From Bdellovibrionales bacterium (GTDB taxonomy: Bacteria; Bdellovibrionota; Bdellovibrionia; Bdellovibrionales; UBA1609): DNA of 64,000 nucleotides. Below are positions 61,561 to 64,000 of this stretch, piece by piece. The position numbers were made by a program, and so were the translations under genes. Positions within the stretch are counted from its first letter, which is position 1; every line of letters begins with the position of its first letter. Location: NCBI GenBank assembly GCA_019695175.1, contig JAIBAM010000002.1, positions 124,001 through 188,000 of the forward strand, in the 5' to 3' direction. Below the pieces are notes generated by a model that saw nothing but the letters and a program-made list of their open reading frames with translations, was not told the DNA's origin and made no database searches.

Positions 61561-62190
61561 TCACTTCCTATTTTGAGGGCATATTTTTTTCAAAAAGCAA
61601 CTCCCACAACTAGGGTTCCTGGCTCTACAAACATTTCTTCCATGAGTGATGAACCAATGAGAGACTATAATCCATTTACTTTTTGGGATTAATTTTACCA
61701 ATTCCCGTTCTATAACTTCGGGATTCTCTGAAGTCACCAGACCCAGTCGGTGCGAAACCCGTCGCACATGGGTGTCAACTACGATTCCTGAGGCTATCCC
61801 AAAAGCATTTCCCATAACCACATGTGCGGTTTTTCTCCCCACCCCCGGCAGTTCTATTAAATATTCGAAATCAGGGGGAACTTTACCATTTTTCTCTTTA
61901 ACTAATTTTCGTGCCATAGCTAAAATATTTTTAGCTTTATTATGAAAGAACCCGGTGGAGCGAATAAGGGTCTCCAAATCTTCCAACTGCGCCTTTGCTA
62001 TCAGAAAAAGGTCCGGATACTTGGGAAAAAGTTGAGCTGTGACCTGATTCACTCTTTTATCAGTACACTGAGCACTTAAAATCGTTGCTATCAATAATTC
62101 TTCGCCATTGGAAAAATTCAACTCGCAATGGGCCTCCGGATAGTGCTTTTCCATTTCTCGCAAAATTATTTTGATATGGCCTGTACCCAT
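61561..62190 (-). CDS. nth: Endonuclease III (DNA glycosylase/AP lyase)
   Basis: Removes oxidised pyrimidines and nicks AP sites. 209 residues. The helix-hairpin-helix LPGVGRKTAHVV contains catalytic Lys120, Asp139 is in VVDTHVRR, and the [4Fe-4S] cluster ligands are C188, C195, C198 and C204 with the C-x6-C-x2-C-x5-C spacing. All features are intact. First gene of the nth-doxX-thiBPQ cluster; 34 bases separate it from doxX. Confidence 0.96.
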   Translation of the reverse strand: MGTGHIKIILREMEKHYPEAHCELNFSNGEELLIATILSAQCTDKRVNQVTAQLFPKYPDLFLIAKAQLEDLETLIRSTGFFHNKAKNILAMARKLVKEKNGKVPPDFEYLIELPGVGRKTAHVVMGNAFGIASGIVVDTHVRRVSHRLGLVTSENPEVIERELVKLIPKSKWIIVSHWFITHGRNVCRARNPSCGSCFLKKICPQNRK

Positions 62191-62523
62191 AGTTCACGTA
62201 TTTCCCATAAGAACATGACCCTACAATCCAGTGAAATCCCAAGTCACCCGATTTCTTTCCATTGAACTTAAGATTTAACCTCCTCAGATTTAATCACTTC
62301 AGATTTAATCACTTCAGATTTAATCACTTAAAATTGAATCGATATTGAAGTTCTTTAAATCTGAGCGCCCGCCCCACCCCCCAGCCCTCTGTCTTGAAAA
62401 AGGCCTGTCACCGCAAACTCATAATTATCTCTAAGGCATTTAAATTTACAATGATAACTGAAGCTGTTTACTGAATGAATCACTCTTCAAGGGACAGTTG
62501 AATGGAATGAAGGAGACACATCC
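62191..62523. other. Spacer between divergent nth and GNAT genes
   Basis: 333 bases holding divergent promoters (not clearly identified) and a block of 15-bp tandem repeats at 62270-62344. A C-rich stretch around 62370-62390 stands out against the AT-rich context. Confidence 0.5.
62270..62344. repeat. 15-bp tandem repeats (three exact, flanked by decayed copies)
   Basis: CAGATTTAATCACTT is repeated exactly at 62285-62299, 62300-62314 and 62315-62329. The 15 bases before (62270-62284) and after (62330-62344) look like diverged copies. Units are contiguous without spacers. Confidence 0.85.
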
Positions 62524-63618
62524 ATGGATGGACCACGTGCACCTCACGCTGTTGAATTCCCAGAGGTTTTAAATTTTTTCAACCGGCAACTACGCCCAGA
62601 ATCCCAATGGACGGTGGATGAAGAGTATCCGTTAGTTCTTTCACCACAAAAACTATCCAACGTTCGCATCATTAAACAAAATGGACAGTATCTTTCTGGT
62701 GCTGTTATCAAGTGTTTTCCAGTGAAAACAGTGGCTGGATTATTTAAAGTGGCTGGACTTGGCAATGTTGTGACTGACCCAGCCCACCGCGAACAGGGAC
62801 TCAGTCGATCGGTTATAAATGATTTACTCGAAACAGCCCAGTTTGCGGCCTGTGACTTTGCTATTCTTTGGAGTGATCTTCACGATTTTTATCGTAAATT
62901 GGGATTTGAGTTAGCAGGAACTGAAGTGTGTCTCCGCTTAGAAAATGAGTGGGAATCACCTAGTAATTTAAAATTCATTGAAAGCTCTCATGTCTCTCCT
63001 GAAGCCATAAATCGAATCTACAATCAACACACCTGCGGGGCCATCCGTACGGCAGAGGACATTCGAAAATCTCTTAAAATTCCCAACGCCAAGGTTTACA
63101 CCGCCTGGGATCAAAACAGCAATCTTCAAGCTTACGCCATTGAAGGAAAAGGAGCTGACCTGAATGCTTGCATCCACGAATGGGGTGGGGCTGTAAGTCG
63201 GCTTATCCCCCTCCTTGCCTTTATTCGTAAATCTCAGCAAAGGCCTCTAACTCTTTTAGCACCAAAAAGCGCTCAGAATTTAAAACGCCAGTTAGAAGAA
63301 CAAGCCCACTGTAATGTTCATGAAGGGGTCTTGGGAATGATCAAAATTCTCAACTACAATATCTTTTATAGCAAAATAAGGCGTTACGCCCGAAGCCTCG
63401 GTTTTGATAATTTTGTCCTGGAGCACCAAAATAACATTTCTTACTTTGGCATCGAAGGCCAAGCACTTTTTAAAACCGATCAGCCGTCCGACATGGTTCG
63501 CCTGATCTTTGGTCCACAGAACGCTCAGGAATTACATTCATTTGATTCCAAGTCTTCAGAGTGTCTCCAATCCATTTTTCCCATCCCATTTTGGCTTTGG
63601 GGTTGGGATTCTGTCTAA
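62524..63618 (+). CDS. GNAT-family N-acetyltransferase
   Basis: 364 residues. The N-terminal half carries a GNAT fold: VAGLGNVVTDPAHREQGLSRSVINDLLETA (75-104) is motif A with the acetyl-CoA pyrophosphate loop (HREQGLSRS), and FYRKLGFELAG (121-131) is motif B. The C-terminal half (about 150-364) resembles a second, weaker GNAT-like lobe (IHEWGGAVSRLIPLLAFI) as in Eis-like two-domain enzymes. AAGGAGACACATCC precedes the ATG. The substrate is unknown. Twelve bases later a lipoprotein gene begins, probably co-transcribed. Confidence 0.75.
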   Translation: MDGPRAPHAVEFPEVLNFFNRQLRPESQWTVDEEYPLVLSPQKLSNVRIIKQNGQYLSGAVIKCFPVKTVAGLFKVAGLGNVVTDPAHREQGLSRSVINDLLETAQFAACDFAILWSDLHDFYRKLGFELAGTEVCLRLENEWESPSNLKFIESSHVSPEAINRIYNQHTCGAIRTAEDIRKSLKIPNAKVYTAWDQNSNLQAYAIEGKGADLNACIHEWGGAVSRLIPLLAFIRKSQQRPLTLLAPKSAQNLKRQLEEQAHCNVHEGVLGMIKILNYNIFYSKIRRYARSLGFDNFVLEHQNNISYFGIEGQALFKTDQPSDMVRLIFGPQNAQELHSFDSKSSECLQSIFPIPFWLWGWDSV

Positions 63619-63630
63619 TTGAGAGGAAAG

Positions 63631-64000
63631 GTGACAAAAAAAAATTCGTGGCATCACTTAGATTTATTTAATTTGAATGATTTATTTAAATTGAATTTAT
63701 TTAAATTGAATTCATATAAATTCAATATATTTAAAGATGATATATATTTAAATGGAATCTCTCTTCAGCACGTCGTGATTCACGGAATTTTAGCCTTGCT
63801 CATTCCCTTTTTTCTTATTTTTTTGACTGGATGCGTTAAACCTGCTGCATTTTCCAAGACAGATCTGGGTAAAGAATCCAGCAAAGAAGAAGTGGAATTT
63901 GCTTTAGCTAAAGCATTTTATGGGGTCAGTCCTTGGAGAAGTCAGGTCAAACAACAGGTCGTCTATGACTTTAATGTAAGAGTTGAATCCCAAGAAAATG
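63631..64000 (+). CDS. Lipoprotein with repeat-coded N-terminal extension (partial)
   Basis: I read this frame by hand; it is open to the window edge (123 codons). A hydrophobic segment ends in a lipobox LTGC, with Cys68 when counted from the GTG at 63631, which has GAGAGGAAAG upstream. The 67 residues before the Cys are far longer than a normal lipoprotein signal peptide, and residues 11-42 are built of LFKLN-like units from DNA repeats. An alternative GTG at 63775 gives a normal 19-residue signal but has no ribosome binding site. After the Cys the mature part reads VKPAAFSKTDLG and contains ALAKAFYGVSPWRSQVKQ; no family recognised. Confidence 0.6.
   Translation, partial: MTKKNSWHHLDLFNLNDLFKLNLFKLNSYKFNIFKDDIYLNGISLQHVVIHGILALLIPFFLIFLTGCVKPAAFSKTDLGKESSKEEVEFALAKAFYGVSPWRSQVKQQVVYDFNVRVESQEN
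63661..63756 (+). repeat. In-frame 15/18-bp degenerate tandem repeats inside a lipoprotein gene
   Basis: Six units: two of 18 bases (63661-63678, 63679-63696) and four of 15 (63697-63711, 63712-63726, 63727-63741, 63742-63756). All resemble TTATTTAAATTGAAT. Every length is a multiple of three, so the frame is kept. They encode DLFNLN, DLFKLN, LFKLN, SYKFN, IFKDD and IYLNG. Confidence 0.75.

Follow-up and report, generated by a model that had tools for sequence, protein, structure and literature searches.

A degenerate in-frame tandem repeat in the probable signal-peptide n-region of a Bdellovibrionales lipoprotein gene

The window, that is, the whole 64,000-nucleotide stretch of Bdellovibrionales DNA analysed here, ends within a predicted lipoprotein gene that lies downstream of a GNAT acetyltransferase gene and is followed on its 3' side by a typA/bipA-like gene. 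The features of the GNAT-lipoprotein junction are as follows.

62524-63618, + strand: upstream GNAT acetyltransferase gene, 364 aa, ending WLWGWDSV-stop (from the ORF list; Pfam PF13527, E = 9.9e-10)
63619-63630, + strand: 12-nt spacer between the GNAT stop and the GTG, with the Shine-Dalgarno GAGAGGAA (63621-63628; duplex energy -6.0 kcal/mol)
63631-64000, + strand: lipoprotein gene from its preferred GTG start, 340 aa in all, with its stop past the window, at L004 2652-2654
63661-63726, + strand: clean in-frame repeat units 1-4 of 18, 18, 15 and 15 nt, encoding DLFNLN, DLFKLN, LFKLN and SYKFN
63727-63758, + strand: degenerate last part of the array, made up of unit 5 and, at 17-nt spacing, unit 6
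63775-63777, + strand: in-frame GTG, alternative start candidate, without a Shine-Dalgarno (+1.2 kcal/mol)
63781-63783, + strand: codon of a His that precedes the lipobox Cys by 17 residues
63832-63834, + strand: codon of the lipobox Cys (LTGC), conserved in all 46 of the sequences aligned

The product has the predicted features of a lipoprotein, namely a hydrophobic core and then a lipobox with an invariant Cys, ILALLIPFFLIFLTGC. In an alignment of 24 lipoprotein sequences, hand-chosen and with an L029 entry that began inside the gene, five Cys residues were invariant, that of the lipobox and four others. Searches of the lipoprotein against Pfam and NCBIfam gave no family up to an E value of 0.1, a weak match to DUF6795 was obtained for one of the 24 family members (E 0.0026), and the single match in the PDB was at chance level (E 0.69).

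An earlier note on this DNA had described a tandem repeat in the region before the lipobox, and the repeat is indeed present: TRF reports an array at 63662-63758 with a period of 15, 6.1 copies, 78% matches, 8% indels and a score of 93. The repeat was said to begin at 63631, which is the GTG codon; it starts near 63661. The earlier proposal was of six units, each in frame and 15 or 18 nt long; units 1 (63661-63678), 2 (63679-63696), 3 (63697-63711) and 4 (63712-63726) are as described, whereas unit 5 (63727-63741) is degenerate and unit 6 sits 47 nt past the matching point of unit 3, hence 17 nt after unit 5 and two bases out of register. The longest perfect period-15 tract measures 33 nt, and the array holds one pair of identical adjacent 15-mers. 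Where neighbours among units 1-4 differ, at four bases in all, each difference alters the residue, as would be expected if the peptide were unconstrained, though four are few. AT-only codons make up 22 of the 32 in 63661-63756, and the array peptide is largely what such codons give. An amphipathic character was considered for this peptide and discarded, its helical moment being matched by 1173 and its strand moment by 1477 of 2000 peptide shuffles.

To place the array against its background, arrays were sought in a 464-kb sample of this genome (2.6 Mb in 56 contigs) consisting of the 64-kb window and 20 further stretches. The sample contained 42 non-overlapping arrays of score ≥50, seven of them scoring ≥90, while three Markov-shuffled copies of it yielded none at ≥90 and a best score of 67. 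Against the genome background the array is well above chance. Its significance is weaker when judged by its own composition because the local AT content is extreme: 1 in 1000 dinucleotide shuffles of the array itself reached a score of 93, and no 97-mer of the 464 kb is lower in GC than this tract (10.3% vs near 40% for the genome). The number of arrays in the sample also means that such repeats are not rare in this genome.

Several of these other arrays were noted in their own right. A second 15-bp array (62266-62340; 5 copies, score 101, best of 1000 local shuffles 53) is intergenic, between the GNAT gene and a gene on its far side that we take to be nth-like. Local alignment of this array with the one at 63662-63758 gave no evidence of a common origin: of 1000 shuffles each, 70 and 86 attained the score. 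At L100 9311-9357 (G000:C48:19311-19357) there is a perfect 8-bp repeat, AATGAACT (5.9 copies), and ORFs of ≥60 aa are absent within 200 nt of it; this repeat is a better slippage candidate than the lipoprotein array. Two perfect 10-bp arrays, TTGTTCTGAA (3.3 copies, L092 4471-4503) and TCTAAATAAA (3.1 copies, L099 15090-15120), each lie 5' of an ORF of more than 500 codons, and a 21-bp array of five copies at L092 133-238 falls within a 118-aa ORF and encodes SSPHVAP repeats.

Matches to the lipoprotein were found in 62 of 98 genomes, the window's own included, and the GNAT-lipoprotein junction was readable in 57 of them, i.e. the query and 56 homologues (unreadable and left out: L056, L064, L071, L072 and L073). 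The pairing of a GNAT gene with this lipoprotein without a named family shows a start/stop overlap in 50 of the 56 readable homologues (loci L018-L081). The homologue starts are inferred ones, assigned by a script that favoured starts overlapping the GNAT stop; as so assigned, the start codon overlaps the stop by 4 nt in 47 homologues, by 1 base in three and in neither way in six. In the query there is no such overlap.

The distance from the GNAT stop to the lipobox Cys is 213 nt in the query and at most 163 nt in the homologues, the largest being that of L029, a value unaffected by the uncertain lipobox picks (differing, or one of two, across readings in L045, L051, L053, L062, L067 and L077) or by the doubtful start of L078. 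Signal lengths were compared in the 45 homologues whose frame is complete and whose start overlaps the GNAT stop by 4 nt, which leaves out 11 of the 56 (L023, L025, L029, L038, L042, L061, L063, L065, L067, L077 and L078). These have 16-49 residues before the Cys (median 24); L029, outside the set, has 54. The 67 residues counted in the earlier note hold for the query, the lipoprotein frame running open through the array from GTG 63631, and exceed the length in every homologue measured. No tandem array of score ≥50 occurs at any of the 56 homologue junctions (maximum 43). In the genus mate G001, the 4394-bp contig yielded no array scoring ≥40, and the next ORF starts differently, as judged by eye. 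A His 15-19 residues before the Cys is present in 20 of the 45 homologues, always preceded by five residues or more, and absent in 25, and a Lys or Arg precedes position Cys-15 in 37 of the 45, the shortest signals having scarcely any room for one.

Among the in-frame starts scored for pairing with the anti-Shine-Dalgarno, GTG 63631 is the best, and its value of -6.0 kcal/mol is attained at 34% of first ATGs in a set of 174 long ORFs vs 6.6% of 2100 random sites. TTG 63619 (-4.0 kcal/mol), which adds four residues, is a possible second choice; three in-frame TTGs within the array are without a Shine-Dalgarno (+0.4 kcal/mol each), and TTG 63796 (-3.5 kcal/mol) falls within the hydrophobic core, a start there giving 12 residues ahead of the Cys. 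Throughout 63631-63774 the lipoprotein frame is open and the other five of the six frames are closed. The frame stayed open in 249 of 20000 dinucleotide shuffles, a test that is flattered because a period-15 structure preserves whichever frame is open. Judged from these sequence signals, GTG 63631, with a Shine-Dalgarno of its own, is the most likely start of translation; it is preferred because of that site and because the homologues that share the His carry at least five residues ahead of it. With no Shine-Dalgarno at 63775 and the GNAT overlap lost, the array is most likely translated as an enlarged n-region.

The principal alternative would have the array serve as untranslated leader or as promoter, with translation starting at GTG 63775 and the number of units tuning expression, which we regard as unlikely. 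A start at 63775 keeps some plausibility because many homologues have short signals, in some only 16-19 residues, and the 19 residues that it would give fall within the family range; moreover, the shared His is missing from more than half of the homologues, the stretch just before 63775 is predicted to be mostly unpaired (0.73) and the tract is extremely AT-rich. However, GTG 63775 is without a Shine-Dalgarno, its n-region would be MIHG, with neither the Lys nor the Arg that most homologues have, and the query would be left with two residues before its His, fewer than in any of the His-bearing homologues. A promoter scan gave one promoter-like site inside the array, on the - strand (63752-63724), and none on the + strand, and the six promoter-like sites in 62150-64000 compare with 3.8 (sd 1.8) in shuffles. 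Shuffling the array left the predicted pairing of the Shine-Dalgarno unchanged (90 of 200 shuffles gave the real value or less). Of the two readings offered by the earlier note, the longer n-region is favoured by the Shine-Dalgarno, the sole open frame and the His of the homologues, and the 5'-UTR is disfavoured. That note had also named homologues without the repeat and with a start at 63775 as speaking against its proposal: the homologues do lack the repeat at the score of 50, whereas those that align at the His do not start at the position of 63775.

The RNA of the region was also folded. The Shine-Dalgarno is predicted to be paired (probability unpaired 0.01) with the array, with the array shuffled or without it, and array RNA structure was therefore set aside as a regulator. 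Separately, 63620-63637, comprising the Shine-Dalgarno and the start, is predicted to pair almost fully with U-rich codons that lie downstream, in the hydrophobic core, independently of the array. The array itself folds at -17.5 kcal/mol, which 46 of 1000 shuffles reached, and a 242-nt stretch folds with z = -3.0, matched by 2 of 200 shuffles. A genome-wide operator motif, ATTTAAATTGAATTNA (≤2 mismatches), was rejected, with 51 forward and 55 reverse sites vs 41 and 44 for the reversed control. For TAAATTSAATTTA there were four sites in three places vs none for the control, too few to call a motif; the places are the array, an 18-nt duplicate before the Shine-Dalgarno of another lipoprotein-like gene and a position about 60 nt upstream of an ATG. 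That duplicate, in tandem and with TAAATTGAATTTA in it, is at L008 1501-1534 (G000:C1:40950-40983), immediately ahead of the Shine-Dalgarno, and the lipoprotein-like gene is presumably superoxide dismutase-like.

The earlier note had called the design phase-variation-like, a description that finds no support here: the clean units are multiples of three, so that a gain or loss of units cannot switch the frame, and the copies have diverged. The array could still be a contingency locus in a wider sense, in which slippage at a high rate alters the unit number and with it signal-peptide length, export or expression. The tandem structure with its identical pair of 15-mers and the presence of other slippage-type arrays in the genome are in keeping with this, but the perfect tract is short, matches and indels across the copies (78% and 8%) speak of divergence, units of 15 and 18 nt leave the frame unshifted and none of the 56 homologue junctions carries an array at ≥50; we consider it very improbable. 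Equally doubtful is a graded slippage device, in which the number of units would set the length of the cleaved n-region and thereby tune lipoprotein targeting or initiation. As a switch the array would matter only if its copy number varied between isolates, and the searches, one of which may omit very near records, brought up a single genome of the species. A further possibility is an error of sequencing or assembly, the stretch being AT-rich and this one genome a draft in 56 contigs; against this, the units differ from each other and a long reading frame is preserved, and we give an artefact the least credence of all.

The explanation that we consider likely is a minisatellite expansion confined to one lineage, in an n-region that tolerates changes in length, translated from 63631 and involving no switch. 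On this view, one Bdellovibrionales lineage acquired a small minisatellite, now partly decayed, in the 5' end of its lipoprotein gene; the start-stop overlap with the GNAT gene that is usual in the family was lost, and the Shine-Dalgarno at GTG 63631 serves instead. Translated in frame, the array would make up most of a 49-residue signal-peptide n-region, which would be removed when signal peptidase II cuts before the Cys. The array, its frame, the Shine-Dalgarno, the absence of the repeat from readable homologues and the variability of the n-region are observed; the start at 63631, cleavage before the Cys, neutrality and a lineage-specific origin are what we infer from them. The expansion would be tolerated because the n-region of the family varies widely in length and sequence and because each clean unit is a whole number of codons; it has probably added about 30 dispensable residues to the front of the export signal. 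No switching or tuning function would be needed. If this is correct, the n-region of a lipoprotein has outgrown its family range by repeat expansion without obviously breaking the gene, and gene or signal-peptide callers may misplace the start of the lipoprotein.

In-frame coding minisatellites form a known class in bacteria. As a probable member of it the array is ordinary in kind, being a tandem repeat beyond chance within an open reading frame, and like the others it has units that are multiples of three, so that a change in unit number would alter protein length only. It differs from them in being degenerate, in its few copies and in its position in a probable signal-peptide n-region and not in a mature surface protein. 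In Staphylococcus aureus, surface-protein genes are reported to carry up to seven in-frame variable segments (PMC2884548). Among the matches listed in a word search of open-licence papers, no repeat in a lipoprotein n-region was found, which is weak evidence of absence. The opa genes of Neisseria, as described in PMC3960869, likewise have a tandem repeat within the coding sequence of a leader peptide, where slippage in 5-bp CTCTT units shifts the frame; here, the clean units (18, 18, 15 and 15 nt) are imperfect copies with lengths divisible by three and would not switch it, a single spacing of 17 occurring at the degenerate end, and the many near-perfect, slippage-prone copies typical of such loci are replaced by a 33-nt perfect tract and 78% matches. 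The long signal peptides found mainly in autotransporters share with the present case an N-terminal extension beyond the normal length, and have a charged N-domain (PMC2805444), whereas here the extension belongs to a lipoprotein and is encoded by an AT-rich repeat unseen in its homologues.
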